A DNA stretch of 64,000 nucleotides from Craterostigma plantagineum (Eukaryota; Streptophyta; Magnoliopsida; Lamiales; Linderniaceae): NCBI GenBank assembly GCA_027422505.1, contig JAPQWV010000001.1, positions 7,502,001-7,566,000 on the forward strand, read 5' to 3'. Position numbers and translations under genes: made by a program. The first letter of the stretch is position 1, and each line of letters opens with the position of its first letter. Below are positions 20,963-46,225 of this stretch, piece by piece. The notes below the pieces were generated by a model, which had not been told where the DNA came from, ran no database searches, and saw only the letters and a list, made by a program, of their open reading frames with translations.

Positions 20963-20999
20963 CTCTCGTCAGATCATATGATCCTTGTTATTATTTTAT

Positions 21000-21631
21000 G
21001 GGCTAATTGGAATTCAGGCCCTCTTAACAAGTTTGAGTAGGATTCAGGCCCTCTTTATATTTTAAATAGGGAGAAGGACGCAAATGAATGTTAGGGATAA
21101 GAACCCATTTAGATTGAAAAGACTCTTTTACCCTTACTTTTTCCGGAAATTACATCAGACTTTTTAGACCTACATATTCACGTGTTATAAAGTGGTATAT
21201 AAATCTTATTTAGTGGTATTTAGTAAGACTGAAGTGGTATTATTAAATGATCTGAAATTTTATGGTATAAACCAATTAAAAAACGAACTGAGACTAAAAA
21301 TCGATTTTCAGTACCACAAACCCTAAAATTAGCTTTCCCCCTTCATCGAGAAAACCCGAAGAATTTTCTACCGATTTGAACCCTTAATCGACGAAACCCG
21401 ACCGATTTCGGCACTTCATCGACGAATCTTGCGATGACTCCGAAGAAGAATCCCGTCGATCGCCAAGAAAGTGGGCGGAAGAAGGAGAAGAAAGTTGCTG
21501 GGAAGAACCTCGTCGATCGCCAAATTCTGCTTGTGTTTTGACTGTGTTTAGCACTCTTGGTGTTTTGAATGATGGCTCTGCTTCTGTTTTTTACTGTATT
21601 TTGCGTTTTGAACTAGTTCTATTTTTATAGT
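21000..21631. mobile_element. Family A element, copy 4, left fragment
   Basis: Starts GGGCTAATTGGAATTCAGGC with a second ATTCAGGCCCTC motif 25 bp on, then AGTGGTAT-type units near 21190-21270. It is cut at 21631 by the solo LTR. Its other half is at 33324-36552. Left 9-bp flank TTATTTTAT (20991-20999) matches 8/9 with the reverse complement of the flank before 33324 (TTACTTTAT). See the inversion finding. Confidence 0.75.
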
Positions 21632-23178
21632 TGATAAACGTATATAGTACGTTTATCATAGTATTTAATTGGCTCATAATAGAGTTTTCGTAGTCATTTT
21701 ATGCACTTATTAACCCTATTTCTACTTGTTTTGGTATTATAAGGCTTTAGGACGAGTTTCGGGCGAAAAGGAGCGAAAACGAGGCAAAACGGCGCGAAAA
21801 CGATGAAAACTGGTGAAGGTCACGGCCGTGACACCTAGTGCACCTGGCCGTGACACATGGCAGAGAGTTAGACTGAAGACGGTCACGGCCGTGACACTTC
21901 TTGCACCAGGCCGTGACCCATAGCAGCAGCAACATTAGAAAATTAATATCTCTCAATCTAGACCTCGGATTGAGAATCCCTTTTGTGAGAATGAAGATTG
22001 GCAAGTCTTCTATCCACGGTTAAAATTTCAGGTCAATCGGACATCGTTTACCCCTTCATCCGAGAGAAATACGAAACTGCCGCAAAGCTGTTGAGAGGGT
22101 CACGGCCGTGACGCTACTGCACCAGGCCGTGACGAGCGGCAGTGAGCTCAATTTTTGCCCAGAGAGTGTCACGGCCGTGACCTATCTTGTCCCAGGCCGT
22201 GACAGTGTCGAATTTCACTATAAAAAGCCTAAATTCGACCCAGAAAGGGGAGAACTTACCAGAGATCAATTCCCAACCATCCAGAGACGAAATTAGGGCG
22301 AAAAGAATAGGAAATCCCGTCCCGGAGCGCAAGAGACGGATCAACGAAGAATTCACGCCGAATTAACGAAGAACGAAGATCTTTCCACGAGATCACCTCA
22401 GATTCATCAGTAGGAAAGATCATGAGTTCTTCATCCTTATCTTTTAATTCTTTAGTTGTTTCTCCTTCAATTATGCGTAGCTAAATCCCCGTTGTGTTCG
22501 GGATTAGATGAACGCTAGGATAATTCGTAGTTAAGACATATATTATCGTGACTTTGTGTTTTTGACTATTTATAGTTCTATGAATAAGTTTCGTTGCTTT
22601 AATATGTCTATGTGTTAAAGTGATTGTGTGGAAAAACGTTTAGGGCGACAGCTAAACAACGTTTAGGCCGTTCATAGAAGATAGGATTCGAGTATAGGGC
22701 GAAAGCAAATACTCGATCCTCGCCGTTAGTAATTATTGAATTTTAGATCCCCGCGAGCGTTTAGGGCGACAGCAAATTCGCGAGCGGATAGGAAATTACT
22801 GCGATTTAGTCTTAAGCACTTAGGAGCAATTTTACTGTCTTAGCCGATAATACCTAGCGGGACTCGAATCCCGAGCACGTCTTTATCATCTGAAAACTTT
22901 CGCATCAGTTAGTCGCGTTCTTTGAATTTCTGGTTGATTTAGGAAGATCTGTTAGGTTAAGTCATCAAACAATTTACGCACTTTATTTAGGCTAAATATC
23001 GAGTCGATTAGGTTATTACTAGTACTTGATTTATTCCTTGTGTTCGATACTCGTTTAATCACTTTACTGCACTACAAACGATAGGTTCACTGCCTATCGC
23101 ACGTTGGTGATAGTAATTAGGTTTACGTTTTATTTTATCACTTGTCGCACTTTCCATTCACACACCACGTGTCGATCA
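21632..23178 (+). mobile_element. Solo LTR of the gag-pro gypsy family, opposite orientation
   Basis: 1547 bp, near-identical to the reverse complement of the LTRs at 36553-38103 and 42686-44231. It starts TGATAAACGTATATAGTACG and ends GTGTGTCGATCA-like (...CACGTGTCGATCA). There is no internal sequence on either side. Flanks are ATAGT (21627-21631) and CCTAC (23179-23183), which do not match. They are explained by inversion: ATAGT is the reverse complement of the flank of the LTR at 36553. Transcription orientation follows its family, opposite to the element at 36553-44231. Confidence 0.9.
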
Positions 23179-23197
23179 CCTACGAACTGTAATGCAG

Positions 23198-23355
23198 GTT
23201 TGCTGTCCGCAGTAGAACAGCTCGACGCTTATAGGTCTCCAAACGGCGTGCATCGTTATTGTTTGCGTCACGTCGTCTCAAATTTTAACAAAGAGTTCAA
23301 AGACAGTGACCTAAAGAAATTGTGCCACAGAGCAGGGATGGCGCATACGGTTTAA
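23198..23355 (+). pseudogene. MULE transposase, downstream exon (truncated)
   Basis: Begins after a good acceptor (AATGCAG, 23191-23197) and encodes GLLSAVEQLDAYRSPNGVHR then YCLRHVVSNFN, the conserved block after the second catalytic Asp of MULE transposases, up to CHRAGMAHT. A stop follows at once (23353-23355). The third catalytic residue region and the SWIM zinc finger are missing. The upstream exons are at 44301-45834 on the other strand, 21 kb away. The spliced join across an 83-bp intron gives SDRHPG at the junction, as in intact MULEs. Confidence 0.85.
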
Positions 23356-23458
23356 AAACAGATCGCAAACAAAACATCAAGAAACACACATAAACGTCTA
23401 CAGCTGTCCCAATTAGATAAAAAAATACAGAAAATAAAAACTAAGGTATATAATGCCC

Positions 23459-25639
23459 TCATGTGCCACATCTACGTGGTCGTCTATTCCTGTGCAGATG
23501 GCCACGGTCAACAGGAGCTTCGGGCTGCTCTGGGCGACGACGTCGCTGCTGGGGTCGCGGCGGTGTCTCCTGCACAAATGGCTGATACGGAGGCGTGGCC
23601 TCGTCGTCGTCATCATCATCATCCGCAGCGCCGTAGCCGAGATCAAACCCCGGCGGTGTAAAGTAAGTACCATCCCCGTACTGTGACGTAGGACCACGTG
23701 AAGACGACGGGCCAGGGTCATGCGTCCGACCACGCGAAGACGACGGGACACTCATGTGGGAGGAGGGGACATCAGCGTACGACATATGTCTTCGCTGTCA
23801 TCTGTCAAGGAAAAGACCCTGCATCTGATGTATGAGGTCCAATCCTCCATCCATATCTCCTCCTGTAAGTATCACCTCAGCCCTATCGACGTGCTGTGCC
23901 TAATAGGTAACAATTAACGTCTTAAATGACACGTCCAAAATAAAATAAAAACCTAAAGAATGACAGGTAACTAACCATAACGTCGATAAATGCACTATCT
24001 CCCATCTGGAATCCTCGGTTCATGTGGATCGTCGATGGAGAGATGTAACGACGGGTGATCCTCCAGTACCATGAATAGTAATCTGGAGTGCACTGTGCAC
24101 CACCAACTATCTCCATCGCACCGACTATCCTCTCGTAGCGAGAGACCCACAAGGCTTCGTACTGCTCGTGGAAGGCCCTCCAATCCCTTCCCGCGACGTT
24201 ACGTGTACTGTGCCGATGAAGATCAACGTCGAGCTGTCTCGGACGTTGCGGGACGGACTGAACCATCCCGAACTGTCGTAGCACGCGATCGGGATAGTGC
24301 CACTCAACGATGTTACAGAAGATGAGTGGACACGACGATCGAACGCATGCTGGTCGAGAGTCCGCTCTCAACGCCATAATCTCTGGTGCCTGATCGTCGT
24401 AGGGTGCCCAGACGAACTGCTCCATCGACATGCTATCGATCGACTCACGAATCGCACGCAAGTTCGAGTGCGTCGATGTCGTATGATCGAAAAGCGCATT
24501 CCACCTGAAATAAAATTAATATAAATATATTATTAAAAATATATTAAAATACAAACAAATATTCTAAAATATAAATATTTTTAGGAAAAAAAATTAAATA
24601 TTATAAGAAAAAAATAGATTACATTTTTTAAGAAAAATATATTAAATATACTACCTTGCAGCATGTGCCGGCATGGGCAACTGAATTCCATCTTCCTCGA
24701 TGGGCATCATCCGCACTCGAGGACGGATAATAACGGGCTGAACAGGTAATATACGTATCCATGCCCATACCTACACAAAATTTAAATTAATATGTATACC
24801 TCAAGCAAATTCAAGTACACAAAAGAACAAACCTGTAAATTCAAGTACACAAAAGAACAAACCTGTAGCAACCGCAAAGCTCCACCGATGTTCATCTTCT
24901 GACGCTGGCACGAAGTACAAAGCTCTCTGTACAAGAAGGCCAGCACGGCACTGCCCCAACTGTAAGTGTGCACGGCGTCTATGTCTTCGAGCAGCGGGAG
25001 TAAAGTCATGGACGTTGTGCTGCCGCTGGAGTCGGGGAACAAAACCGATCCCATAAGCAAAAGCGCATATGCACGTGCCCGCTGATCGACCTCATAATCT
25101 GAGCTGTGATCATCGATCTCGTTGGCTTCTAGCCAGTCTGCAAATTTCCTCAGCGACACCTTCGTCCCGGTGTACGCCCCCACAGCAGGTCTGTAACCAG
25201 TCAGCTCCTCCAAGTAATCGAGCCACTGATCCTGCGTCCTGTGCTGGATAACACCACTGACCGAGTGACCATCAACGGGGAGTCCCCACAGCACACCGAC
25301 GTCCTCAAGAGTGACGGTGGCCTCACCCACAGGCAAGTGGAACGTATGCGTCTCCTTCCTCCACCTCTCTACGAGGGCCGTGATCAAGTGTGGATCTAAC
25401 TTCTGAGATCCACAACTATACACGCCGTAGAAGGACATAGTATCCAGCCTCTCCAGAACACGACCGTGCAACTGCACCGGTCGTGAAAGCTTACCCCAGA
25501 CGACACTCTCCAAACCCCTAACGGTCAAAGGTGTGTCGAGGGCACCATCAGCGTTGGATAGTACATCGTTACAACGATGACTATCCTGGAATATCAAAAG
25601 TGATCTATCGATCGGACCGTAATATTCGTTCGTATCCAT
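23459..25639 (-). pseudogene. Plant mobile domain (PMD, MAIN-like) gene carried by the MULE
   Basis: Four exons with GT-AG borders: 24863-25639, 24655-24770, 23976-24504 and 23459-23899, about 620 codons. Exon 1 encodes the first PMD half (TFHLPVGEATVTLEDVGVLW, then GLPVDG...), with WLDYLEELTGY and RARAYALLLMGSVLFPD. Exon 2 starts VWAWIRI; exon 3 continues WNALFDHTT...QFVWAPYDD...NIVEWHYPDRVLRQFG. Exon 4 is Pro/Ser/Arg-rich with an acidic Asp run. An in-frame TGA at 23798-23800 in exon 4 would remove the last 110 residues, outside the PMD core, so the core might still be made. PMD proteins (MAIN, MAIL1) act in gene and transposon silencing; PMD genes are also known as MULE cargo. The gene is convergent with the transposase exon, 103 bp apart. 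Confidence 0.8.
24808..24867 (-). repeat. 30-bp tandem duplication that copies a splice donor
   Basis: The unit AAATTCAAGTACACAAAAGAA plus CAAACCTGT occurs twice in a row at the end of PMD exon 1. On the minus strand each copy offers an ACAG/GTTTGTTC-type donor, so intron 1 has two nearly equal donors 30 bp apart. Use of the inner one would add ten codons. Confidence 0.8.
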
Positions 25640-26276
25640 CCTAAATTAGCGTTTCAAAGTCAATATCGCAACAAAAAACAACAAACAAACACATAAATTG
25701 ACTCATGTACTAACAAACGAATCAAATAACCTAGAAACCCTAATTTCAAAATTAGGTTTCGAAATTAGGGGAAATTTCTAAATCGAATCAATTATGTAAA
25801 ATTAGTGTGTTATATCAATCTATTAAACAACCCACAACATGTAAAGCACATATTATACTAAAAACACAAACTTAAACGCAAGAATTCGACGAAATTTAAC
25901 GAAACATCAAAATCAAGATTTAAACAAATTAGGAGTTTCATACCCAAAAAAAGCTTAATCGACGAAGCCGAGGAAGAATGGATCTATCACGTGGTGTTGG
26001 CCGCCGTCGTTCGCCGCTGTAAATCGCCGGAATCGGTGGGGAGGAGAAGAGGAGAAATGGGGAAGAAGAAGAAAAGGTCGCGGCTTTATTAAGCACGTCG
26101 TCGCGGCCATTAATCTCGACGTCGCGCCTAATAAGCACGACGGCCTGTTTACTGGGCCAACGGTCGGCCCAGGCAATTTTAATTTAAAAGTCAGGCCCAA
26201 CTTTCAAATATCGGGCCCGATCTGGCCCGATTTTCAAATATCGGGCCCGATCAGGCCCGCGCGAAGCCCATCGTCT

Positions 26277-26414
26277 TTGCCACGTCATCGTTGCGGGCAA
26301 TGGATGCGGCATCGCATCTAATAACCACGTTTCGCACGATTTTGTTAATTTATGCCGAGATAGCCCTATTTTAGCTAAATTGGGTTAAAACACCCCTATT
26401 TTAATTAAAAAGCC
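26277..26414. repeat. MULE terminal inverted repeat (side 1)
   Basis: About 140 bp similar to 46076-46216, with shared blocks such as TAGCCCTATTTT and AATTAAAAAGCC. Inside it lie CGTCGCG-rich subterminal sequences on both sides. Confidence 0.85.
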
Positions 26415-26658
26415 TGAATTATTACTCTAAAACAATAAAGAATGTTATAGGTACAGTATAAAATTAAAGTTATGTAATTTTTGTTTATATAAATTAATTA
26501 TGATAGTAATAGATGAGAATATTATTTTATGTCGAAAATAGAGTTAACGAATTAGAGTAAAAATCAGAGTAAATAAAAGAATTAATGAGACAGTTTGAAT
26601 GCAATGTAGCGATTTGATTTTTATATAAACTTAACTGTATTTTGTGTAGTGCGTGGGA

Positions 26659-27029
26659 GAGGTTTGCTATGGTGCCCACCTACCGTGAGCACCATAGCTG
26701 CTTTCGCAATTACAACTTTTTTAATCCCACTCCGGCGATGCCATCACCTCCGCCGCGCCTCTTAGCCTCCTCATAACTTCCATTGTCCATCTTCCACGCA
26801 CTCATTTATCAGAAATTCATATTATACTGCAATTTTCTCGTACATAGCTGAGCTGATGAATTTCTGATAAATGAGTGCGTGGAAGATGGACAATGGAAGT
26901 TATGAGGAAGCTAAGAGGGGCGGCGGAGGTGATGGCATCGCCAGAGTGGGAGAAAAAAAGTTGTAATGCGAAATCAGTTATGGTGCTCACGGTGGTTGCT
27001 CACGGTAGGTGGGCACCATAGCAAACCTT
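26659..27029. mobile_element. Foldback MITE with long hairpin, 371 bp
   Basis: Arms of about 160 bp are nearly perfect inverted copies around a loop near 26835-26860. Ends: GAGGTTTGCTATGGTGCCCA and inverted AAGGTTTGCTATGGTGCCCA. A 10-bp direct duplication GTGCGTGGGA lies at 26649-26658 and 27030-27039. The length of the duplication points to Mutator-type mobilisation. It has no coding capacity; a transcript would be a long double-stranded RNA. Confidence 0.88.
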
Positions 27030-27148
27030 GTGCGTGGGATATGGAAGTTTTAATATATTACGTTCACAAAGTTTGACCTGTAGTTTACGCGAGGCCACAA
27101 CATCTGCATCACGCCGAGAAAATAAATCTATATCCCTAAATAGATTAA

Positions 27149-27391
27149 GGCTACGTTTGGTTATAATATTAGGCTAAAGCTCAGGATAAGAAATTATAAA
27201 TTATTTATATAAGGGCCCAAGATAAATTATCTAAGACCCATCCCCCAATTTATTTATATCGGGCCTTTAGTCTGACACGTGGGCTTTTGAATTATATCGG
27301 GCTGAACAATAACTAACCAAACATTAAATAACACCATCTTATTTATACTAATTGGGCTTAGCTGGGCTTATCACGGAAACCAAACACAGCC
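27149..27391. mobile_element. Tourist-like MITE, 243 bp
   Basis: TSD TAA at 27146-27148 and 27392-27394. Ends: GGCTACGTTTGGTTATA and inverted GGCTGTGTTTGGTTTCC. The interior is rich in GGGCTTA/GGGCCTT motifs. Confidence 0.8.
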
Positions 27392-27834
27392 TAATAATCT
27401 AATAACAATGTCTCTAATCCAGAGAAGCTGGTCGGTTCACAAAGTCACAAAGTAAGGAGATTTTTCCCATTGATAAATGAAATCCGTATATGATATATGT
27501 GTGTTGTGTTTATTTAAATAATAATAAAAAAGCCACCTTGCTAGAAATGTGAACCAAAGTTTGACCAAGTTTTAGTATCCCGAAGTCTTGACTCGTAGTT
27601 TTCCCATCACCAGTTTAAAGCTCAAGTTCATTTAGTTGCTCCTCTATAAACATATTGCACTTTAGACCTGGCTAATGGGCCGGTTCCGGGCCGGTTCTAC
27701 CGGTTCCGGTTCCACCGTTTCCGAGATGGTAGTCCAGAACCGCGAAAGGGAACCCCGGGCCTGTAATAACTAGAACCGGCCCATTTATTTATTTTTTTAC
27801 TTTGAGAAAATTCTTTAAAAAATATCCGAAAATT

Positions 27835-30730
27835 TTATTCCAAAAAAAAACAAAAAAAAGATAAGAAAATTACAAAAAAAGAAAAAATATTCGAAATAAA
27901 AAAACATAAAAAATACCATTTATTCGACTCACTATTAACTAAAACTATGTTCGAAGCCTCTTCGTCTTCGTCCAAACTGGAAGAACGGAACTCGTCGATG
28001 GCGTTCTCCCGTCGGTTCTTCGATTCGGCCAAATACCAATCCTTCAATAAGGTTAGCATTGCGAGGAAAGCCGGGCTAAGGCTCGCGCGTCTTTCGCCAA
28101 TAATTCGCCCGGATGTAGAGAAGGCGGACTCGGAGGCGACACTGGACGCTTGCCCGGCTAAAACGTCTCGAGCGACGGCGGATAGGGTTGGATAAAGAGT
28201 CGCGTTCGACTTCCACCAGGCCAAAACGTCGAAGTCTTCAGGAGTCTGGAAGTTATGGCTCAGGTAGAGTTGGATCTCATTTGTGTTCGACCCCGACGCA
28301 CACGTTTTAGTTTTCGTCTTTTGAGCCTTCAATCTTCGTAGTAGTCCCATTGCGCCGCCAAGTCCTTCCGACGATCAGGCTTTGCTCGCTGGTATGGGCT
28401 GCTCAACACTGTGTCCCTGCTCAGCTGCATAAACAGAAAACAGTTCTTGGAGAGAATCGTGAATTGACGCCTTTTGGTCGTCCACTTTCTTTCTAAGAAA
28501 TTTTTCGTAATAATCGAAAAAAATACCGAACGTGTCCACACCGCAACTAGGGTCGAGTAAAGCAGACAAACCGTGGACTATTGGGATGTTTTCCCAATAC
28601 TTCTTGAACTTCTTCTCCATGTTTGGATGAAATTCCCCAAGTATTGATTACTTCGGAGTTCAACGAACTTGTAACACATGGCGAAGAGGTTCGGGATGAA
28701 CAATGGGGACGTCGGGTAGTGAACTCCGAAAAATTTCTCCATTGCCTCGCTGAACACTTCAAGTATCCACACGACCAAACCTGCAATATCCCAATCAGTT
28801 TGTCGTAATTCTTACCTGGAGTTGCTGCCGACTGCGAATTCGTTCCAAAAAGGCGTCAACAAGTCCTTGTAGCGCATGAAGGTGCTAAGGAGGTGGTACA
28901 ACGAGTTCCACCTAGCCAGTACTGACAAAGGAAACTTCTTGTATGTGAGGCCGGCGGCAACGACGGTTTGCTTCCACGACGTACCGTAGCAGCGTTCCCG
29001 AAGTAACTTACCTATCACCTTAAATTTTTCTACAATATCTCCCAAGATTTCATCGAAGGCGCATTGCACACACAAGTTAATTATGTGGCAAGCGCACCTA
29101 GCATGTAGTAATCGGCCGTCTAAGGGTAACCTAAGATGTCTACGAAGGATCTATATCGCTAAAGTGTTCGCGCTAGAGTTATCTAAGGTGATAGACATAA
29201 TTTTATTTTGAATACCATATTTGTTAACGACGTTCATGACATAGTTTGATATCGTAGTGGTGCTATGTTGCAAAACTAGGGGATCTAGGGAAAGAATACG
29301 TTTTTGCATAGTCCATGTTTCATCTATCCAATGGGCGGGGACGACTAAATAAGATTGCGACGTTACATTTGTCCAAATATCGGTAGTCAAACTAATCATG
29401 CATGATATGTTGCCTAAATGACTACTTAAGCTAGACTGATACTCCTTAAAACATTCTAAGACTTTCCTAAGGGTTTTACGGGTCACGTTATGGAATCCGG
29501 GTTGTATCGTACTCGTGAATTTGATAAACCCTTCACTTTCCGCAATGCAAAAGGGTTCTTCACACATTAGTACGAATTTAACTAAGGTTTTCTTAGAAAT
29601 TTCCCTAGTAATAACAAAATTCTTACCCGTACTAACGTTTATTTGATGTTGTCTAGGTTCGGTTCCTATTGGTTTTAGATCATCCTCGAAATTATGCGTC
29701 CTCTGAAGGTGTTTTTTAATCGACCCCGTCCCACCTTGATTCGGGCCGGACTTAAATTTTTGTACAATATCTCCCAAAATTTCGTCAAAAGCGCATTGCA
29801 TACACAAGTTAATTATATGGCAAGTGCACCTAGCATGTAGTAATCGGCCGTCTAAGGGTAACCTAAGATGTCTACGAAGGATCCCTATCGCTACGTTGTT
29901 CGCGCTAGCATTATCTAAGGTGATAGACATAATTTAATCTTGAATACTATATTTGTTAACGACATTCAATACATAGTTCGATATCGTAGTGGCGCTATGT
30001 TGCGAATCTAGGGGATCTATGGAAAGAATACGTTTTTGCATAGTCCATGTTTCATCTATCCAATGGGCGGTGACGACTAAATAAGATTGCGACGTAATGT
30101 TAGTCCAAATATCGGTAGTCAAACTAATCCTACACGAAATGTTAGCTAAATGACTAATTAAGCTAGACCGATATTCCTTAAAAGTTTCTAAAACATATTT
30201 CCTAAGGGTTTTACGGGTCACGTTACGGAATCCGAGTTGTATCGTACTCGTAAAATCGATAAATCCTTCACACATTACTACGAATTTAACTAAGGCTTTC
30301 TTAGAAATTTCCCTAGTAATAACAAAATTCCTACCCGTACTTACGTTTATTTGTTGTTGTCGGGGTTCCCCGAAATTATGCGCCCTCTGAAGGCGTTTTT
30401 TCATCGAGCCCGTCCCATCTTGATTCGGTCCGGTCTTAATTGTGTAGGGATGGCGGCAAATTTTGCAATAAGCGGTACCTACAGCGGGATTATTTTTATC
30501 CATTTCTAAATAAAAAAAATCCATACCTTAGACCGCCGACCACGCGGTTGTTGCTTCCTTCTTGTAGTCGCCGTAGAAGCTTGGCTCGGTCCCTCGTCGG
30601 TCGCCGCCGTCGGTTCCGGTGCATAGGTCTCCTCGTCGGTGTCGGCATTCTCCCTAAACATATCGGCGTGACCTAAAATCATAAAAGCATCTTCGTCGCT
30701 TGGTATTGGATTTCTCGATGACGGCGCCAT
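27835..30730 (-). pseudogene. hAT (Ac-like) transposase with internal duplication
   Basis: Start ATG at 30730 (MAPSSRNPIPSDEDAF). A one-base G deletion near 30525 breaks SKVW-DFFYLEMDK at the head of the BED zinc finger. The finger in the first copy has CKIC but a His-to-Arg change (KKRLQRAH). The catalytic start TTDIWT and the LDNASANN block follow. At about 29756 the protein restarts at the BED finger: roughly 0.7 kb encoding half the finger through LDNSSAN is duplicated in tandem. In-frame stops include TAA near 29931 (AAA in the second copy) and TAG near 29150. The C-terminal part is a clear hAT dimerisation domain (ASSVASESAFSTSGRIIGER). It cannot be functional without repair. Confidence 0.88.
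29018..30433 (-). repeat. Tandem duplication inside the hAT transposase
   Basis: Two diverged copies of about 0.7 kb, joined near 29756 where both sides share CTTAAA(A)TT. The start region of copy 2 runs directly from the C-terminal block ...DEILGDIVQKFK back to the BED-finger sequence GPNQGGTGS. A further related stretch of about 130 bp sits at 29018-29160. Confidence 0.8.
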
Positions 30731-31174
30731 TAGTATTTTTATAATATAAAAAATAATAAATATAATTGTTTGTAATAATAAGTGAGTGTGTGTAATAGTG
30801 TAAATAAAATAATTATTATTACTAATAATATTAAATATTAATATGAGGATGATTTTTAGAGAGTTTTTTGAGAGAGAGAGAGAGGGAGTGATTTGGATGT
30901 AATTGTGAGTTAAAATGGTTAAAATGAGGTGGTATTTATAGATTTTTCGTTTGGGGGTAAAATGGTAATTTTTAGGGTTTATAGAATTTGAAAAGAACAA
31001 TGAAGAGGCGTTTGGCCCAACGGCTAGCCGATGGGCTGGTTCCGGTTCCGGTTCTGGACCGGTTTCATGGGCCGACTTTGGGCCGGTTCCGGGTTGGCCC
31101 GGCCCAAAATCCAGGTCTACTGCAGTTTTTTAATCTGAAAAACTCATCTTCAAAGACATAATGTAATAATTCTT

Positions 31175-31598
31175 GGGGTCTTTGCACATAAATACCCCTC
31201 TGTAAAAAAAACTTGTATTTAGTACTCTGTAAGCATTTTCTTATATATAGGTATCTAACAGAATAATTTTTTTGCAGATAGGTACCCGATCTGCCGCAGG
31301 TACGCCATACAACACATTTGGGTACCCTATATCAACGTATTGTGGTACGTAATACGTTTAGAAAATGGTACGCCGTATTAGCACATTTAGGTACGCCCTG
31401 TTTACACATTAGGTACACCGTACAAACACATTTAGGTACCCTATATCAACGCGTTATGGTACGCAATACACACAGGAAGGTACGGCATGACTGAAGAGAC
31501 TGGTACAGATTAAATCGGGTACCTATCTGTAAAAATTTGTGACATAGGTACTGATCTGTAAGTTTTTATTCAAATAGGTATTTATGTGTAGATACCCG
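31175..31598. mobile_element. Family B MITE, copy 1, 424 bp
   Basis: Perfect 9-bp TSD ATAATTCTT at 31166-31174 and 31599-31607. Ends contain CACATAAATACC in inverted orientation. The interior is built from GGTAC-containing units such as GGTACGCCATACAACACATT and GGTACCCTATATCAACG. No coding capacity. The 9-bp TSD suggests a Mutator-type source. Confidence 0.85.
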
Positions 31599-31607
31599 AT
31601 AATTCTT

Positions 31608-32423
31608 TTTCACTAGTTAAAACTCATTTTCAAACTCAAAAAAATATTTTTACTATACTTTTTCTTTCACACAAACTTTTATAAATTCTATACTATTTTT
31701 ATATTTTACAACTTTACATATTAGGCAACGATATTATTTTAAATTCAATCGAAAAAATATTTAATAAATTTATGATCTGTAGGTTTTTTATTTTTCGTTG
31801 TTTTTTATGTAACTTTATTTTGATACTTGTATTTTAGCTTAATACGTTTTCAACGGCATAGTTTTTATAGTTATATTAATGTTCCTAGTATTTTTTGCTC
31901 ACTTTATACATGTGCTTACCATCTCAATTTTTATAATCTCAATTTTAATTTTTATTGTTTGAAGAATGTAAAATAAACAATATTTAAGATATAAACGATT
32001 AATCAAGTATAAATTCTAATTTTTACATACCCATCGAGATGACCACGGTCATTGACCAATAGACATGGCAAAAAATATATATTTATTATGATAAAAGCAG
32101 TTCTCACAACATGTCTGATTTTTTTAAAATTACCATGCACATGGTTTTCTAATATTTACTTTTTATTATTTAATAATTATATATGTATATAAAATCTGAT
32201 TGGTTAATTGGCAGATTAATTTATAGTTTTTATTCGTCTTCTAGTTTATAAAAGAGTATAGATAATTCAACGGTATATAAATTTAATAATAATAAAAACA
32301 ATATAATAATAATAGTAATAATAATAACTAATATTTTTCCGCATACTCTATGTGTGTGCTTAAAATATAATTATTATTTTACTTTCAAATTTGATATTTA
32401 GAATTTTTAATGTTTAATAGATT
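31608..32423. other. AT-rich intergenic DNA, no gene seen
   Basis: Very AT-rich with no recognisable gene. It separates the two family B MITEs. Confidence 0.55.
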
Positions 32424-32432
32424 TTAAATATA

Positions 32433-32857
32433 GGGGTCTTTACACATAAATACCCATTTGGAAAAAAACTTGTAATTTAGTACCATATCAGATTTTTTTA
32501 TATGTAGGTACGTAGTAGAATAAATTTTTTACAGATAGGTACCTGATCCGCCGCAGGTACGCCATACAACACATTTAGGTACCCTATATCAACGTATTAT
32601 GGTACGTCATACGTTGAGAAAATGGTACGCCGTATTAGCACATTTAAGTACGCCATCCATAAAACATAAGGTACGTCGTATAAGCACATTTAGGTACCCT
32701 ATATCAACGTGTTATGGTACGCCATACACAAAGAAAGGTACGGCGTGACTGAAGAAACTGGTAAATATTAAATCGGGTACCTATCTGTAAATATTTCTGG
32801 CATGGGTACCTATCTGTAAACATTTTATTCAAGTAGGTAGTTTTGTGTAGATGCCAC
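32433..32857. mobile_element. Family B MITE, copy 2, 425 bp
   Basis: Perfect 9-bp TSD TTAAATATA at 32424-32432 and 32858-32866, different from that of copy 1, so it is an independent insertion. It matches copy 1 along its whole length in the same orientation. Confidence 0.85.
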
Positions 32858-32866
32858 TTAAATATA

Positions 32867-33323
32867 ATGTGCAGGGATATAAGTTCAACAAATAAATCAT
32901 TTATAACTAATATGATAATCATTTAATTAATTAAATTCTAATAGATGGGTTAAATTGCAAATAAAATGACCAATTGTGGAAGCTTATAGCCACCCTTCAC
33001 CCATAATATAATTTGATAATATCTTTTGACTATAATACTAAACAAATTTATACAAAGAAATATAACACAAGTAGGAATATAAAACAATTATGGTAAGAAA
33101 AATATAATTTAAGTAAACATTTTGAGACCCCAATTACTGTTTAGGCAGAGAGAAAAGCACCACGCATATTTCGCGTTTCATTTGCATATGGTTGGAGACA
33201 AATTTGGGTATAAAATTGAAATTTTGGTACCGATTCGGAGATCAACACACTTTTGCTATTAACTAAGAGACCCCAATTACTGTTTAGGCAGAGAATCCCA
33301 TTAGGTACGGAATAATAAAGTAA
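32867..33323. other. Intergenic with a 28-bp direct repeat
   Basis: No gene. The 28-bp sequence GAGACCCCAATTACTGTTTA plus GGCAGAGA occurs at 33124-33151 and 33267-33294, in direct orientation 143 bp apart, bracketing a 115-bp segment of unknown nature. Confidence 0.6.
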
Positions 33324-36300
33324 GGGACGTTTCTATTTCAGGCCCTATAATAAGTTCCCATTTGAGTTCAGGCCCTCTTCATTTTAAATATAGTTTTAAG
33401 GACCAATTCTATATAAAATTCAAAGTAAAGGACATAAACAATGATTTGACGAAAATGCCCCTTGTAGGTGTTATATAAAGTGGTATAAATCGCTATTATT
33501 ATGTTACCCGATGCTATTCAAATGGTATCAATCGAAAAAACTATTTCAACGATCGATTTTCCTAATTTTTCGAGTGTACTGGGCACAAAATCAATTTTGA
33601 TGTGTACTCGACGATCTCAATGATAACGTCGTCAGATTTAATAGTTGTGAGGAATAATTTCTAGAAATTCATTTACGCAAATAAGATAAATCGAGCATGT
33701 TTTTTGTCGAAATTAAAGCTAATATGCATAAATTCGAGACCCATAGCTTGGAAATTACGTCGTGCCTTAGTGGTGACTCAATCGTTCGTCCCTCAAGATT
33801 AACAAACTGAAAGTAAAAATCGCCAAAAAATAGTTAAAATGAGTGTTCGTTATGTGGTATCAGAAAGGCATAACAGGTGTAATTTCCATAAGATTCGGTA
33901 CAATAGAGAAGTAAAGTGGTATAGTTACGATAAGAAGCATTACTCGAACTGGTACGGGATATTACTTATTCTAATTTGGTATTACTTTTATATGATGAGG
34001 TACTAAGACAGCTTAAAGTGGTATAACTACCATAAGAAGTGGTTTCCAGATGTTATGCAAATGGTATCAATGGAAAAAACTATTTCAACGATCGATTTGC
34101 CGTAAGTTTTTTTGCATACTGGGCACAAAATCAATTTTGATGTGTACTCGACGATCTCAATGATATTTATGTCGTCAGATTTAAGATCTGTGAGGAATAA
34201 TTTCTAGAAATTCATTTACCCAAATAAGATAAATCGAGCATGTTTTTTGTCGAAATTAAAGCTACTAATATGCATAAATTCGAGAGATCTATAGCTGGGA
34301 AATTACGTCGTGCCTTAGTGGTGACTCAATCGTTCGTCCCTCAAGATTAACAAACTGAAAGTAAGAATTGCCAGAAAATAGTTAAAATGAGTGTTCGTTA
34401 TGTGGTATCAGAAAGGCATAACTGGTATAATTTCCATAAGATTCGGTACAATAGAGACGCAAAGTGGTATAGTTACGATAAGAAGCACTCGAACTGGTAC
34501 GGGATATTACTTATTCTAATTTGGTATACTTTTATATGATGAGGTACTAAGGCAGCTTAAAGTGGTATAACTACCATAAGAAATTGTTTCCAGATGTTAT
34601 GCAAATGGTATCAATGGAAAAACTATTTCAACGATCGATTTGCCGTAAATTTTTTCCATACTGGGCACAAAATCAATTTTGATGTGTACTCGACGATCTC
34701 AATGATATTTACGTCGTCAGATTTTAGATCTATGAGGAATAATTTCTAGAAATTCATTTACGCAAATAAGATAAATCGAGCATGTTTTTTATGGAAATTA
34801 AAGCTAATATGCATAAATTGGAGAGACCCATAGCTTGGAAATTATGCCGCGCCTTAGTGGTGACTCAATCGTTTGTCCCTCAAGATTAAGTAACTGAAAG
34901 TGAAATCGCCAGAAAATGAGTGTTCATTATGTGGTATCAGAAAGGCGTAAGTGGTATAATTTCCACAAGATTCGGTACAATAGAGGCGTAAAGTGGTATA
35001 GTTACTATAAGAATAAGCATTGGCGTAAGTGGTACTGAATAAGCAAGTCACTTTATTTTGGGCGGAAAAGCTGAATCTCAGTATTATTTTGGGTGGGATC
35101 TTATGTAGTATATATTCATGTAATGATGTGGTACCAGAAACACTTTATATGTTACAGATGACGGTTTACGCGCTAGGGTTTCTAGTTTTATGTTTTAGAG
35201 TATCGGGGCTTTGGGTAAACGTTTTCCGGGTTACAATTAAGGGTTTACTATCGTAAGATTTGTTATATGATTGACGTATAATGTTTGTTAGGATACATTT
35301 TTGTAAGTCATAATGGTAAATATCAATGTGATGTAAATATAGTTGTCTATGATTTGCATTGGTGTACATTTTACATGATCAAAACTACCTGACTACTTGC
35401 ATCATATTTGCATTAACGTGACAAAATGAAGGAACTTGGTTGTTTAAATACATCAAATCTAATATTTCCATGATTTTCATTCTTCTACAATCGAAAAAAC
35501 CAACTTTTATTTACGAAATTATTCGAACCATTAATATGGTACAGATAATATATTATCTGGTATTACAACGAATTAATGTGGTATTATTTCGTAAAGCATT
35601 GTTACAAGGATAGTATAAATGGTTACCAAAATATTATTAAGTGGTATAATTTATATGTGATGTGTTATAATATAAAGATGGAGAGACCATATTCACTGAC
35701 GGCCCATGAAGCTTCTGGAATGTTCTTATTTTTTGTTATGAAGAATATAAATTGGTACTAAACTACGCTGAAGTGGTATAATTTACATGTGATGTGGTAT
35801 TGTATAAAGATGGAGACAGTTTGACGGCCCATGAAGCTTCTGGAATGTTCTTATTTTTTGTTGTGAATGGAGTTTAAATTGGTACGAGACTACGCTGAAG
35901 TGGTATGATTTACATGTGATGTGGTATTGTACGAAGATGGAGACAGTTTGACTACCCATGAAGCTTCTGGAATGTTCTTATTTTTTGTTGTGAATGGAGT
36001 ATAAATTGGTACGAAGCTACACTAAAGTGGTATAATTTACATGTGATGTGGTATTGTATAAAGATGGAAACGATAATAGGCCCATGAAGCTTTTGGAATG
36101 TTCCTATTTTCTTTTACGAGTGGAGTATAAATTGGTACCAGACTATACTTAAGTGGTATAATTTACATGTGATGTGGTATTTTATAAAGGTGGAAACGAT
36201 AATAGGCCCATGGAGCTTCTGGAATGTTCCTATTTTTTGTTACGAATGGAGTATAAATTGATACCAAACTATAAGTAAGTGGTATAATTTTACATATGAT

Positions 36301-36552
36301 GTGGTATTTTATAAATATGGAGACGGTAATAGGCCCATGAAGCTTCTGGGTATTTTTTGTTACGGGTGGAGTATAAATATGTACCAAACTACACTTAAGT
36401 GGTATAATTTACATGTGATGTGGTATTGTATAACGATGGAGACGGTAATAGGCCCAAGAAGCTTCTGCAATGTTCTTATTTTTTGTTACGAATGGAGTAT
36501 AAATTGTAACCAGAATATTAGCAAGTGGTATAATTTACATGTGATGTACTAT
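33324..36552. mobile_element. Family A element, copy 4, right fragment with large tandem arrays
   Basis: Begins GGGACGTTTCTATTTCAGGC, with a second GTTCAGGCCCTC motif, the same end type as at 21000 and in the same orientation. An array of roughly 545-bp units follows (about 2.6 copies, 33480-35030; for example GATCTCAATGATA near 33612, 34158 and 34697). Then come about eight units of some 122 bp (35560-36550), each with GTGGTATAATTTACATGTGA and CCCATGAAGCTTCTGGAATG. It is cut at 36552 by the LTR. Joined to 21000-21631 the element would be about 3.9 kb. Confidence 0.75.
35560..36550. repeat. 122-bp tandem array, about eight units
   Basis: Units differ by small substitutions and indels. Each contains GTGGTAT, a GGCCCATGAAGCTTCTG block and a TTCTTATTTTTTGTT run. 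The array lies within the family A element. Confidence 0.85.
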
Positions 36553-38103
36553 TGATCGACACGTGGGTGTGTGAATGGAAAGTGCGACAAGTGATAAAAT
36601 AAAACGTAAACCTAATTACTATCACCAACGTGCGATAGGCAGTGAACCTATCGTTTGTAGTGCAGTAAAGTGATTAAACGAGTATCGAACACAAGGAATA
36701 AATCAAGTACTAGTAATAACCTAATCGACTCGATATTTAGCCTAAATAAAGTGCGTAAATTGTTTGATGACTTAATCTAACAGATCTTCCTAAATCAACC
36801 AGAAATTCAAAGAACGCGACTAACTGATGCGAAAGTTTTCAGATGATAAAGACGTGCTCGGGATTCGAATCCCGCTAGGTATTATCGGCTAAGACAGTAA
36901 AATTGCTCCTAAGTGCTTAAGACTAAATCGCAGTAATTTCCTATCCGCTCGCGAATATGCTGTCGCCCTAAACGCTCGCGGGGATCTAAAATTCAATAAT
37001 TACTAACGGCGAGGATCGAGTATTTGCTTTCGCCCTATACTCGAATCCTATCTTCTATGAACGGCCTAAACGTTGTTTAGCTGTCGCCCTAAACGTTTTT
37101 CCACACAATCACTTTAACACATAGACATATTAAAGCAACGAAACTTATTCATAGAACGATAAATAGTCAAAAACACAAAGTCACGATAATATATGTCTTA
37201 ACTACGAATTATCCTAGCGTTCATCTAATCCCGAACACAACGGGGATTTAGCTAAGCATAATTGAAGGAGAAACAACTAAGGAATTAAAAGATAAGGATG
37301 AAGAACTCATGATCTTTCCTACTGATGAATCTGAGGTGATCTCGTGGAAAGATCTTCGTTCTTCGTTAATTCGGCGTGAATTCTTCGTTGATCCGTCTCT
37401 TGCGCTCCGGGACGGGATTTCCTATTCTTTTCGCCCTAATTTCGTCTCTGGATGGTTGGGAATTGATCTCTGGTAAGTTCTCCCCTTTCTGGGTCGAATT
37501 TGGGCTTTTTATAGTGAAATTCGACACTGTCACGGCCTGGGACAATATAGGTCACGGCCGTGACACTCTCTGGGCAAAAATTTGAGCTCACTGCCGCTCG
37601 TCACGGCCTGGTGCAGTAGCGTCACGGCCGTGACCCTCTCAACAGCTTTGCGGCAATTTCGTATTTCTCTCGGATGAAGGGGTAAACGATGTCCGATTGA
37701 CCTGAAATTTTAACCATAGATAGAAGACTTGCCAATCTTCATTCTGACAAAAGGGGATTCTCAATCAGATGTCTAGATTGAGAGATATGAATTTTCTAAT
37801 GTTGCTGCTGCTATGGGTCACGGCCTGGTGCAAGAAGTGTCACGGCCGTGACCGTCTTCAGTCTAACTCTCTGCCATGTGTCACGGCCAGGTGCACTAGG
37901 TGTCACGGCCGTGACCTTCACCAGTTTTCATCGTTTTCGCGCCGTTTTGCCTCGTTTTCGCTCCTTTTCGCCCGAAACTCGTCCTAAAGCCTTATAATAC
38001 CAAAACAAGTAGAAATAGGGTTAATAAGTGCATAAAATGACTACGAAAACTCTATTATGAGCCAATTAAATACTATGATAAACGTACTATAATACGTTTA
38101 TCA
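36553..38103 (-). repeat. 3' LTR of the gypsy gag-pro element
   Basis: 1551 bp. It carries four pairs of CACGGCC(T/A)GG and GTCACGGCCGTGAC boxes in its U3 part and a TATAAAA box on the minus strand near 37505. It is one of the two recombination partners of the proposed inversion. Confidence 0.92.
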
Positions 38104-39761
38104 AACCTCCCCACACTTAAGCATTTGCTTGTCCTCAAGTAAATTGAAAGTCAGAGAAGGTACAAATCAAGATAACGGCACGATTGTTCGCAATTTATCA
38201 TCAAAGCTAGAAACATGAAACGAAATCAAGCGAACAATTATGGACATCACACTAATGACTTGCACTTGTCTACCTAAACTTCCTTCGCACTGCCAATCGA
38301 GACTCATATCTCACATGGGATTCGCTCAAAATTACTCAGTGTATAGGCTAGCATATAGTGAATCGCTCAATTCGTGCACTAGTCCCGCCCCTACCATAAA
38401 CTTGCAAGCTAATCGCATCTCTACTACTTAATGTGTCAAGCATAAATCTGAGGGTCTTTTTGGGGAAACGGGTCGAATAATCATGAAGCGATAAGCATAT
38501 ATAATGAACACTTAATCTTAGAGCTAGGACACTTAAGCAAAAATTATCAAAGAACACAGCATGATCAAACAGACAATCACACGTCCCGACATAAGACTCA
38601 ACGTTCTCGCTCTGAAATCCTAGACTTTTCTGCCCGACCCTCTCGACTCAGTTCCCTTTCATTTTCCGCCTTTCACCTTAGTTACGCTCTACTTTTGTGC
38701 ACTGCCCTTATTCCCTAAAAACATCAAGCTTCGGCTTTTGTCGCAAAGAATACATCGTCACAGCGAATGCCGTGTACCTAGGGATACTTATTACCAAAAC
38801 CTATATCTTGCCAAAAGGTTTATGGGCAGGCTTATGCAAGGGATCAAGTCATTTCAGAAAACGGTCAAGTAAGGGACGAGTCATTTCACGAATAGCAGAG
38901 AAGAACATCAAATCAAACACTGGAACAGTAACTTTCAAGTTCGACTTCTGCTTTATTCTAATCAACTCAGGTTCAGATAATCTCTGGAGGCTTATTCGGG
39001 TCAGTGGCTCTTATAATTTACGAGGTAAGCAACGAATAGGCTCAGGCTCAACGTGGCTAACTAATGGGTTCGTCATGGTTAAGAAAATTTTGGCCCTGGA
39101 CTTGATTCCTATTGCCCTCATCATTTTCACACTAACACACCAAAACAGTTTCAACACGCATCAGACAGGCAAGTTCTAGAGTGATATAGACTAGGCACGT
39201 CACACAACCAAGAAAAATGAGCATAAGCTCGTCAGGCTCAAACTCTCACACGAAACAGGGTTATGTGTACGGATCTCTCAAAACAGTGCTACATCTAGTC
39301 AGGCAGACATGATTCGATCAGTCATGCATATCCTAATTGCTCACAAGAATTCATAATAGTGAAGACTAACTCGAGATAATGCGCAAAAATCGTGCCTGAA
39401 TTCAATAAATTCATGCCTTTCAACGAAATTTATAGCTCACAGACACGTCATAAAAAATTTTTACGTGCATTTTCAGCCTAAATTCCCCTCCCCACACTTA
39501 GTCCGACGTTGTCCTCAACGTAAAAACGGATAAAAGGAAGGGAAAAAGAAGGTTAAAAGAGCGAAACTCCCCTGACGAATAAGTGACGTGGCCGTGCCTG
39601 AACGCGTGAAGATCGTGGATCGTGACTCGTGATATCCTGACATAACTAAAAAGAAAATGAAACGTAAAAGGAACTAGACATAGATAATAATAATAATAGT
39701 AATAATAATAATAATAATAGATTTCATATGCATCATAGTCATAGGTAAATAAAAGAAAGTA
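38104..39761 (-). other. 3' untranslated internal region with two polypurine-like motifs
   Basis: No coding region. On the minus strand, TTGAGGACAA followed by AAGTGTGGGGAGG occurs twice: at about 39483-39522 and next to the LTR at 38104-38145. The second is the expected plus-strand primer. A similar motif in plus orientation is at 58050-58085. A run of AAT repeats lies at 39683-39720. Confidence 0.7.
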
Positions 39762-42493
39762 CTAGATAGATAAATCTGGGTTGCCTCCAAGTAGCGCTTC
39801 CTTTACCGTCTTCAGCCGGACGTGCTTTCGTTCCCTTAGGGTGGCTGAAAGTTGAGGTACAACACATCTTTTCTGCTTTATGTCTCCCTCGCCTACATCC
39901 ATACCTTGGAGGTGTCGTTTTTCGCCGGGTAGTGGTTTCAACTCTAGTGGCGGTCGCTCCTCGACTGGGCTCTTGTCCTTAACTTCTTCGATGCTCTCGT
40001 CGATGGCTATGATGGGTTCGTCGATCTCCTCCCCACACTTATCAATTGCCATAATCGTGTGCCTATCATGCTTGCTGACCTGTGATAGACCTTGCACGGA
40101 AAAGAGAAAATCGTGCTCAAATACATCTAAAAAATAGCATTTATCATCTTGCTCGTTGCTCTTTTTCATCGAGTCAGCCATATTGAACGTAACTTTTTCA
40201 CCGTCTACTGTCAAGGTTAATGTTCCATTCCTAACATCTATCATGGTCTCGCCTGTAGCTAAGAATGGTCTACCTAGAATTAATGGAACATTTTCATCCT
40301 CGTCTATGTCTAAGATCACAAAATCAGCAGGGATAACGAACTTATCGACCTTAACTAGAACATCCTCGATAACACCTAGAGGGTATTTTAACGATCTATC
40401 GGCCAGTTGAATATTCATTCTAGTGGGTCGTGGTTCACCTAATCCTAAGCGCTTAAACATGGAGTACGACATTAAATTTATATTAGCGCCTAGATCAGCT
40501 AAAGCATGCTCAACAACTAAATCACCTATACGACAAGGAATAGTAAAACTCCCTGGGTCCTTGAGCTTTTTCGGTATCTTGCTCTGGAGTATCACCGAGC
40601 ACTCTCCTCGTAGGTATACCGTGGAGACGTGTTCGAGCTTCCGTCGGTTCGTCAGCAAGTCCTTCAGGAACTTAACGAAACTGGGCATCTGCGCAATAGC
40701 TTCAACAAACGGTAAGTTAATATGTAATTCTTTGCACATACCCATGAATCTGCCAATCAGCGCCTCGTCTTTGTCCTTCTTCAACCGTGCTGGATATGGA
40801 ATCTTCGGATGGTACGGCATCACTGGTGGCCGCTCGTTCTCCCTTGCTTTTTCTATTTCGGGTGCAGCCTCCTCCTTTTTAGGTTGAACCTTCTCTTTTT
40901 CAGGTGTAACTTCCCTCAACCGAGCTGGGTACGGGATCTTTGGTTGATACGGCTTCACGAATGGTCGCGTCTTTCTCTCGTCATCCTTGACCTCCTCGAC
41001 TCTGTCGCTCTTGCTTTCCTCCACTTCTGGCTCGTCGTGGCCCTCGAAATCGACTTTCTCCTTTAAATTCTGCTTGGTGGGAGCTTCTTGTAATCCTCTC
41101 CCGCTCCTCAGGGTTACCGCATTGCAATACTCCTTGGGGTTTGTCTCGGTGTAGCTCGGGAGTGATCCTTGATTTTGCCCCGCCATTTGCTTTGCTAATT
41201 GCCCCACTTGCTGCTCCAACCTCTTGATCGAGGCGTCTGTATTCTGAGCACGGATGTCATTCGCCTCCATGTACTCCTTCATCTTTGTCATTCGGCTTTC
41301 GTGGGCTGCGGTGGTGCTGCTGAAATTCGTGAGGAGTGTCTTCATCATATCCTTCATTTCCTTTATATCATCGGATCCTCCTGCGGGCGCGTTCTGGTAC
41401 TGTCGTGGCGGCCCGTTTTGGAATCCAGACGACCTCGGCTGAAATCCCGGCGGTCCTTGCCCCTGGTTGTTCTGATTCCCGTACGCCAGATTGGGGTGCG
41501 CTCGGGCTGGTAACTTCGCTGGCCACCTTGGTAATTTTCCATATAGTCTACGTGCTCCAATGATTGCCCAAGTTGGCATTCCGATGTCTCGTGGGCTGCG
41601 CCACAGATCCCGCACAATGGCACGTATGGGGTGTGCTGCGTCGGTGCGGTGGTCGTCACGGCGTTCACGGGCTGAGTCTGCCCGAACTTCGGGAGTAGTG
41701 CGCCGATGACTGTCTGCAGCTGAGAGTTCGTCGCAGCGATCTGTTGCTGAAGCGCCTCGAATTTTGCATTCGTGGCCGTCTCCTCGCTCACTCCAAATAC
41801 TCCTGTTGTTTTCATCCTCGTATTGCCCCTCATGAAACTATTCCTCGAGTAATCCTCAATCAGGTTCCAAGCGTCGGTCGCGTTGAGCTTCACGAGTCCT
41901 CCTCCTGCAGCTCCGTCTAGCATATGGACAGTCTGGTCGTTGAGCCCCTCGTGGAACCGGTTGATCTGGGCTGCCTTCGACATCCCGTGCTGTGGGCATC
42001 GCTTCAATAGCGCCTTGTATCTATCCCAAACCTCGTAGAGGTTCTCTGAATCCTTCTGATGAAACAGAGAGATCTCCGTTTTTAGTCTGAGCACCTTCGA
42101 TAGTGGGAAATAGTGGTTGATGAAGGCGGCTCGCATCTCCTCCCAGGTGGTGATCGACCTGGGCGGCAACATATCTAACCAGTCCTTCGCCCTGAACTTG
42201 AGCGAGAACGGGAATAGCATCAGCTTGATCGCGTCGCCCGGGACCTCGTTGATTTTGATGGTGTCGGTCACCGTCAGAAACGACTTCAGATGGGAGTAAG
42301 GATCGTCATCTGGGTTGCCCTCGAATTGGGCCATCTGGAATATCATCTGAAGCCAAGAATGCTTCAGTTCGAAATTGTTGTTCTCAATCGGCGGGATGAC
42401 AATCGCCGTCTCAGTACCACCTAGTGCGACATTCTTGAGGAGATCCTGTAGTGATAGTCCCTCCTCGTGGACAGGGACTCTGTGGTCCACCAT
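39762..42493 (-). pseudogene. Gypsy gag-protease, one frameshift
   Basis: Start MVDHRVPVHEEGLSLQDLL at 42493. The Gag core has the retrotransposon-gag signature (FPFSLKFRAKDWLDMLPPRS, ...FLTVTDTIK...). A zinc knuckle reads CGICGAAHETSEC. One base is missing in the CCCC run at 41494-41497, which shifts the frame from ...YQPERTP into NLAYGNQNNQGQ. After a charged linker with two PYxPKIPYPARL repeats comes the aspartic protease (ADLGANINLMSYSMF, with ILGRPFLAT). The frame ends after LELKPLP and a short tail KTVKEALLGGNPDLSI, which in full Athila-type elements lies after integrase. RT-RNase H-integrase are therefore cleanly missing, and the protein would be about 900 residues if the frameshift were absent. 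Confidence 0.87.
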
Positions 42494-42660
42494 ACTTCTG
42501 TATCTGGACCAAAAGAAATCAACCCGTAAAAGAAATAACGAAAATAACAATGACTAGAAGCACAAATAACGCAAATAGTAATAAAGAAGAAAAAAAAAGG
42601 AAAACTTCAAATAAAAATGGCTAAATTACCGAACTACGGTGTTCCTAATATCAATCTATT

Positions 42661-42680
42661 CCCCCGGCAACGGCGCCAAA
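42661..42680 (-). other. Gypsy primer-binding site (tRNA-Asp type)
   Basis: Minus-strand TTTGGCGCCGTTGCCGGGGG, six bases inside the 5' LTR. It is typical of Athila/Tat-type plant gypsy elements. Confidence 0.85.
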
Positions 42681-42685
42681 AACTT

Positions 42686-44231
42686 TGATCGACACGTGGT
42701 GTGTGAATGGAAAGTGCGACAAGTGATAAAATAAAACGTAAACCTAATTACTATCACCAACGTGCGATAGGCAGTGAACCTATCGTTTGTAGTGCAGTAA
42801 AGTGATTAAACGAGTATCGAACACAAGGAATAAATCAAGTACTAGTAATAACCTAATCGACTCGATATTTAGCCTAAATAAAGTGCGTAAATTGTTTGAT
42901 GACTTAACCTAACAGATCTTCCTAAATCAACCAGAAATTCAAAGAACGCGACTAACTGATGCGAAAGTTTTCAGATGATAAAGACGTGCTCGGGATTCGA
43001 ATCCCGCTAGGTATTATCGGCTAAAACAGTAAAATTGCTCCTAAGTGCTTAAGACTAAATCGCAGTAATTTCCTATCCGCTCGCGAATTTGCTGTCGCCC
43101 TAAACGCTCGCGGGGATCTAAAATTCAATAATTACTAACGGCGAGGATCGAGTATTTGCTTTCGCCCTATACTCGAATCCTATCTTCTATGAACGGCCTA
43201 AACGTTGTTTAGCTGTCGCCCTAAACGTTTTTCCACACAATCACTTTAACACATAGACATATTAAAGCAACGAAACTTATTCATAGAACGATAAATAGTC
43301 AAAAACACAAAGTTACGATAATATATGTCTTAACTACGAATTATCCTAGCGTTCATCTAATCCCGAACACAACGGGGATTTAGCTACGCATAATTGAAGG
43401 AGAAACAACTAAAGAATTAAAGATAAGGATGAAGAACTCATGATCTTTCCTACTGATGAATCTGAGGTGATCTCGTGGAAAGATCTTCGTTCTTCGTTAA
43501 TTCGGCGTGAATTCTTCGTTGATCCGTCTCTTGCGCTCCGGGACGGGATTTCCTATTCTTTTCGCCCTAATTTCGTCTCTGGATGGTTGGGAATTGATCT
43601 CTGGTAAGTTCTCCCTTTCTGGGTCGAATTTGGGCTTTTTATAGTGAAATTCGACACTGTCACGGCCTGGGACAAGATAGGTCACGGCCGTGACACTCTC
43701 TGGGCAAAAATTGAGCTCACTGCCGCTCGTCACGGCCTGGTGCAGTAGCGTCACGGCCGTGACCCTCTCAACAGCTTTGCGGCAGTTTCGTATTTCTCTC
43801 GGATGAAGGGGTAAACGATGTCCGATTGACCTGAAATTTTAACCATCGATAGAAGACTTGCCAATCTTCATTCTGACAAAAGTGATTCTCAATCCGAGGT
43901 CTAGATTGAGAGATATGAATTTTCTAATGTTGCTGCTGCTATGGGTCACGGCCTGGTGCAAGAAGTGTCACGGCCGTGACCGTCTTCAGTCTAACTCTCG
44001 GCCATGTGTCACGGCCAGGTGCACTAGGTGTCACGGCCGTGACCTTCACCAGTTTTCATCGTTTTCGCGCCGTTTTGCCTCGTTTTCGCTCCTTTTCGCC
44101 CGAAACTCGTCCTAAAGCCTTATAATACCAAAACAAGTAGAAATATGGTTAATAAGTGCATAAAATGACTACGAAAACTCTATTATGAGCCAATTAAATA
44201 CTATGATAAACGTACTATAATACGTTTATCA
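42686..44231 (-). repeat. 5' LTR of the gypsy gag-pro element
   Basis: 1546 bp, with the same CACGGCCGTG box set as the other two copies. It differs from the 3' LTR by scattered single substitutions and one-base indels, so the insertion is not brand new. Confidence 0.92.
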
Positions 44232-44300
44232 GTAGGTAACATGAACTTATTTTAGTAAAAGAAAAAACCAACAACTTGATCTATTTTTAATTGAAAATAC

Positions 44301-45834: not shown

Positions 45835-46075
45835 ATTGGATATGTATGAAATTTATGAAATAATAATCGACAAATCGAGGCGTTTAAATAGGGTGATTCG
45901 TCGCCGCGCGACGCATAGTGGCCCAATAACGTGAGTGGGCTTAGTGGGTTTTCAGTGGACGGTTAGTGGGTTTTAGTGGGTATGGGTCAACGTCGCGTCC
46001 ATTAGGCGCGACGTCGCGTCCATTAACAGCGACGCTGTCCCACACGGGCCACACGCGGGCCCGACCGGGCCCTTG

Positions 46076-46216: not shown

Positions 46217-46225
46217 AATAATTCA

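Follow-up and report, generated by a model that had tools for sequence, protein, structure and literature searches.

The window analysed here, a 64-kb stretch of Craterostigma plantagineum DNA, contains two insertions of one LTR retroelement family whose flanks do not fit. Each insertion should stand between two copies of its own target-site duplication (TSD), and neither does. The question is what separated the copies. The first insertion is at present a solo LTR (LTR S, 21632-23178, plus strand, 1547 bp) of the form TGAT...ATCA, which starts with TGATAAACG and finishes with GATCA. Its left flank is ATAGT (21627-21631) and its right flank CCTAC (23179-23183), both read on the plus strand. The second is a full element in the opposite orientation (36553-44231) with two minus-strand LTRs, the 3' LTR nearest to S (LTR A, 36553-38103, 1551 bp) and the far 5' LTR (LTR B, 42686-44231, 1546 bp), both inverted relative to S. 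Its plus-strand flanks are ACTAT on the left (36548-36552) and GTAGG on the right (44232-44236). S gives an inverted match to 38104-36553 with 98.8 % identity over 1552 columns and to 44231-42686 with 99.0 % identity over 1548 columns. A and B are 98.7 % identical, and identity among the three LTRs ranges from 98.7 to 99.0 % along roughly 1.55 kb. LTR B begins, at its outer end (44204-44231), with a near-perfect palindrome of 28 bp in which 26 of 28 positions equal the reverse complement, and the same end of the other two LTRs is concerned too.

Among the six possible pairs of the four LTR flanks, none is identical. The same six comparisons give two reverse-complement pairs only, the left flank of the solo LTR with the left flank of the element and the right flank with the right flank. 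The TSDs ATAGT and GTAGG are exchanged exactly between the two insertions, as the preliminary description of this DNA had stated. Two random 5-mers are reverse complements of each other at a rate of 0.00137, and of 300,000 quadruples drawn at random 2 showed both matches. Features by which an inversion mediated by transposable elements is recognised include homologous copies that face opposite ways at its two breakpoints and TSDs exchanged between these copies; both are present here. One breakpoint would lie inside S, 21632-23178.

A gene that is split in two gives a further marker of the inversion, beyond the four repairs on which the preliminary description relied, and makes no use of the TSDs. 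The minus-strand ORF 45697-44252 is the beginning of a MULE transposase. The 5' piece, exon 1, covers 44301-45697 on the minus strand and has a frame change before its end, after which it reads up to ISDRHPG at 44301. A GT intron start stands there, so that the intron would begin at 44300, and the retroelement starts 69 bp past this border. The 3' piece, exon 2, is found about 21 kb away on the opposite strand (23198-23337, plus) and is cut short by an in-frame stop. An AG intron end lies 19 bp past S on the plus strand and is followed by LLSAVEQLDAYRSPNGVHRYCLRHVVSNFNKEFKD, leaving 19 bp of the putative intron, TSD included, between S and exon 2. The GT and AG borders therefore flank the insertion, one on each side, and together with the homologues they point to an intron at this place.

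Pfam gave no match to either transposase piece on its own, and the pieces were therefore compared with homologous proteins; the MULE name is based on homologues with the MULE domain PF10551. The best 120 of 191 homologues are mostly from Sesamum, with others from Primulina (well represented in this list), Henckelia and further genera; Sesamum and Primulina both belong to the Lamiales. Both pieces are matched by 70 of these 120. In 65 of the 70 the start of the second piece falls -7 to +3 residues from where the first one ends; in 43 of these the two overlap by 4. For the other five the distance is -15 to +18, and only an earlier stretch of exon 1 is matched. In the remaining 50 of the 120 the second piece is unmatched at E 0.001. 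The adjacency of the pieces in 70 homologues means that positions 44232 and 23179 once adjoined and that the retroelement had inserted into the putative transposase intron.

The ends of the same MULE also record the event. Its terminal repeats, the displaced one at 26275-26414 and the undisplaced one at 46076-46216 (both plus strand), are at present direct repeats with 75.9 % identity over 141 columns. Their alignment score is 178, whereas the highest score reached by 500 shuffles was 71, as it was for 500 random pieces. Outside the ends at 26414 and 46216 stand TGAATTATT (26415-26423) and its reverse complement AATAATTCA (46217-46225), which form an exact 9-bp TSD only when one end is flipped. 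The random rate of such a match is 1.5e-5, although the window has five occurrences of the word, counting both strands. Long terminal inverted repeats, a 9-bp TSD and a mudrA-type transposase, i.e. the marks of a MULE, are all found, with the repeat orientation and the TSD correct only once the flip is applied. The restoration of this element, which had been described earlier, is confirmed.

The MULE (23179-26414 and 44232-46216) consists of a shortened transposase plus ORFs of a plant mobile domain. The latter are two minus-strand ORFs in 23922-25645 that match the first and the last part of PF10536 (E 8.4e-50 and 8e-23), on the strand opposite to transposase exon 2. Capture of the PMD-C domain by MULEs is described for several grasses and Amborella (PMC5418596, available text), where it is fused to the transposase, whereas here the plant mobile domain is separate from it. 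Near the displaced MULE end lies a MITE-like inverted repeat (26678-26996, about 320 bp, 88 %) that is self-complementary.

The second host transposon, which we call family A, is also in two parts, 21000-21631 on the plus strand and 33324-36552 on the minus strand, the latter with tandem repeats. Its ends at 21000 and 33324 are in direct orientation at present. The TSD-like flanks are TTATTTTAT (20991-20999, plus strand) and ATAAAGTAA (33315-33323), of which 8 of 9 bases agree after the flip; a match with at most one mismatch has a random rate of 1.75e-4, and TTATTTTAT is found 20 times in the window, both strands counted. The end alignment scores 85. The best of 500 shuffles reached 58, but three of 500 pieces taken at random from the window exceeded the ends (88, 176 and 214). 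When the window was scanned at a local score of at least 62, only 15433-15530, similar to the right end, was found besides the family A ends. The plus strand contains the word TTCAGGCCCT of these ends six times and the minus strand not at all, so the present window has no inverted partner with the exact word. Because of the higher-scoring random pieces we use family A as support only, weaker than the MULE. Its earlier reported restoration keeps its 8/9 TSD, with weak evidence behind it.

The history that we propose for the locus is the following. Two copies of a Ty3/gypsy-type LTR retroelement of the same family would have inserted in opposite orientation, one into the family A transposon, duplicating ATAGT, and the other into the MULE transposase gene, duplicating GTAGG in its intron. 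One of the copies would then have been reduced to a solo LTR, in the order that we infer, and a homologous (ectopic) crossing-over of this solo LTR with one of the two LTRs of the full copy would have followed. The crossover would have inverted everything between the crossover points, exchanged the flanks, and brought the ends of each host transposon into direct orientation. An inversion by recombination of opposite LTRs, already proposed in the preliminary description, is well supported, and the split transposase adds to it. That it happened in the plant, by such a crossover between S and the full element, we regard as likely. The word proven, used earlier, is too strong, as a misjoin in the assembly would look alike and the test for chimeric LTRs described below gives a gain of 1.84 with p 0.27 from few sites. 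The count of four independent repairs was likewise overstated: the two LTR TSDs are coupled in a single pattern; the MULE and family A do need an inversion, but both only bracket its breakpoints.

The partner of S decides how large the inversion was. If the DNA from S to the near LTR A (23179-36552, 13,374 bp) is turned round, the solo LTR has ATAGT on both sides and the full element has GTAGG on both sides. Turning round 23179-42685 (19,507 bp) instead places the full element between two copies of ATAGT and the solo LTR between two copies of GTAGG. In the second version, the same mechanism with the far LTR B as partner, the ancestral full element stood at 21.6 kb while the MULE intron contained the solo LTR; the 19.5 kb inverted would include the internal region of the element. 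The segment 23179-36552 is inverted under both models. All four LTR flanks are restored equally well by either flip, the positions of the MULE, family A and the transposase fit both alike, and no marker found outside the LTRs discriminates between a near-LTR and a far-LTR exchange. By position, the transposase and family A alone place the left breakpoint within 21000-23198 and the right one within 33324-44301. The length of the inversion is thus not fixed, 13,374 and 19,507 bp both restoring the TSDs, because the element has two LTRs and either restores the same ones. The size of 13.4 kb given earlier agrees with the near-LTR flip; the 19.5-kb flip restores the LTR flanks equally well.

The LTR differences were used in a likelihood test of the partner. 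The 26 variable columns comprise 7 sites particular to S, 11 to A, 7 to B, and one three-state site, and show no clear switch. The test used the 25 two-state sites, without an outgroup, and excluded the three-state site. An exchange of S with A is expected to leave S-only sites on the left and A-only sites on the right; an exchange of S with B, B-only sites on the left and S-only sites on the right. For S and A the gain was 1.84 log units (permutation p 0.27), and for S and B, where the expected excess is absent in what is a weak test, it was 0.00 (p 1.0). Four control pairings gave gains of 0.61, 0.04, 0.61 and 1.84, the last for B with A. S and B are the closest pair of LTRs by a small margin, with 12 substitutions compared with 14 and 15 for the other two pairs, which speaks for the far LTR. 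We slightly favour the near LTR A, the LTR differences deciding nothing; within the best explanation an exchange with B is the less probable version, to be given serious weight.

The same picture would arise if the chromosome were un-inverted and the assembler had crossed over at the inverted LTRs, since the breakpoints lie inside near-identical inverted repeats of 1.55 kb. Such cases are known: when maize centromere 10 was resequenced, five elements whose TSDs had not matched and five misassembled solo LTRs were put right, according to the available text of PMC4806543. The 64 kb contain zero N, however, and the three LTRs are resolved separately, with 26 variable columns, which suggests that long reads or clones are behind the assembly. 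We consider an assembly error unlikely. The swapped-TSD pattern could itself be used to check assemblies for misjoins at inverted repeats. Double-strand breaks repaired by end joining, falling by accident inside both LTRs, are a very improbable source. Break repair is judged the likeliest cause of maize centromere rearrangements, inversions among them, in the available part of PMC4806543, but here all three LTRs are of full length (1547, 1551 and 1546 bp), while breaks inside two LTRs should leave shortened or mismatched copies. A history with no inversion at all, in which each element lost its TSD partner in an exchange of its own and the flanks match crosswise by chance, has practically negligible probability. 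Unequal recombination is indeed named as a source of solo LTRs and intact elements without TSDs (PMC7251063, available text). A chance origin of the swapped flanks was rejected at about 2e-6 to 7e-6, and separate losses were rejected as they leave unexplained the split transposase and the MULE TSD, which require the same flip.

The retroelement that we hold responsible for the ectopic crossover has the marks of a Ty3/gypsy LTR retrotransposon, i.e. paired TG..CA LTRs, a 5-bp TSD (matching only once the flip is applied), gag and protease. Its internal region (38104-42685, minus strand) codes for a gag (PF03732) and an aspartic protease (PF13650). Six more minus-strand ORFs of at least 40 aa in 38104-39762 matched no Pfam family, and about 1.6 kb, apparently non-coding, precedes the 3' LTR. 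No reverse transcriptase or integrase was matched in the eight minus-strand ORFs scanned, these six and those of gag and protease, and the full copy is probably a non-autonomous gag-protease element. The Ty3 capsid profile scored 22.9 bits, under its cut-off of 29.1 bits. The best 120 of 244 gag homologues are from Tanacetum, with 30-46 % identity. We take the primer site and the 3' end to resemble Athila; membership, judged by the reverse transcriptase, is not claimed.

The substitution distances are 0.0098 between S and A, 0.0078 between S and B, and 0.0091 between A and B, so the LTR copies are of similar age. With substitution rates of 1.3e-8 or 7e-9 changes per site and year they are about 0.3-0.7 million years old. 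The inversion should be younger than both retroelement insertions because their TSDs are swapped. The age from A and B is only approximate if A or B is chimeric, and the authors of REANNOTATE warn likewise about recombination between LTRs of different elements and age (PMC2672092, available text). It is conceivable, and in our opinion quite doubtful, that S, A and B form a live switch, in which exchange of S with A or B can reverse the segment again and again, in either of two sizes. If true, populations may carry several orders, and alternating partners would let the solo LTR and the full element swap places without transposition.

The inverted segment holds parts of transposons, a hAT dimerisation domain (27838-28374) and the plant mobile domain of the MULE, and no host gene broken by the inversion is seen among ORFs of at least 150 aa. 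Beside the hAT dimerisation ORF, 29019-30439 contains direct repeats (87 %) over two minus-strand ORFs; these may be pieces of a hAT transposase, and Pfam matched neither ORF. Elsewhere in the window a LINE-like element (50218-54656) has three successive overlapping ORFs, matching DUF4283, an endonuclease/exonuclease/phosphatase, and a reverse transcriptase with zf-RVT, in this order. A bHLH-like ORF has no homologue at E 0.001, and a tRNA scan of the window found none.

The mechanism itself is not new; the locus is a good example of an inversion made by LTRs. Such a rearrangement is ordinary, and its record appears unusually complete. A literature search covering titles and the openings of abstracts, with few subscription journals, found no plant LTR inversion described through exchanged TSDs, and we claim no priority. 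As a worked example the locus shows TSDs, nested transposons and a split gene jointly recording one LTR-made inversion. It also shows a trap: when a partner has two LTRs, swapped TSDs reveal the exchange and neither the partner nor the size.

According to the available text of a study of the transposon Galileo (PMC2775673), ectopic recombination is marked by copies in opposite orientation, by chimerism of the copies and by an exchange of their TSDs. Two of these three marks, opposite copies and exchanged TSDs, are found here. The closest likeness is to the Galileo inversion 2z3 of Drosophila buzzatii, with two opposite copies at the breakpoints and their TSDs exchanged. As described there, that inversion involves a DNA transposon and is a polymorphism, non-inverted chromosomes were sequenced and the copies were shown to be chimeric, whereas here the LTRs of a plant retroelement are involved and one sequence only is at hand. 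Elements and solo LTRs with mismatched flanks, read as recombinants, are also described in maize centromere 10 and in other plant cases (PMC4806543, PMC7251063). Unlike those cases, as far as the available text of these papers presents them, the window here contains both exchange partners, so that their flanks can be matched up, and the event has also left its record in two host transposons and a split gene.
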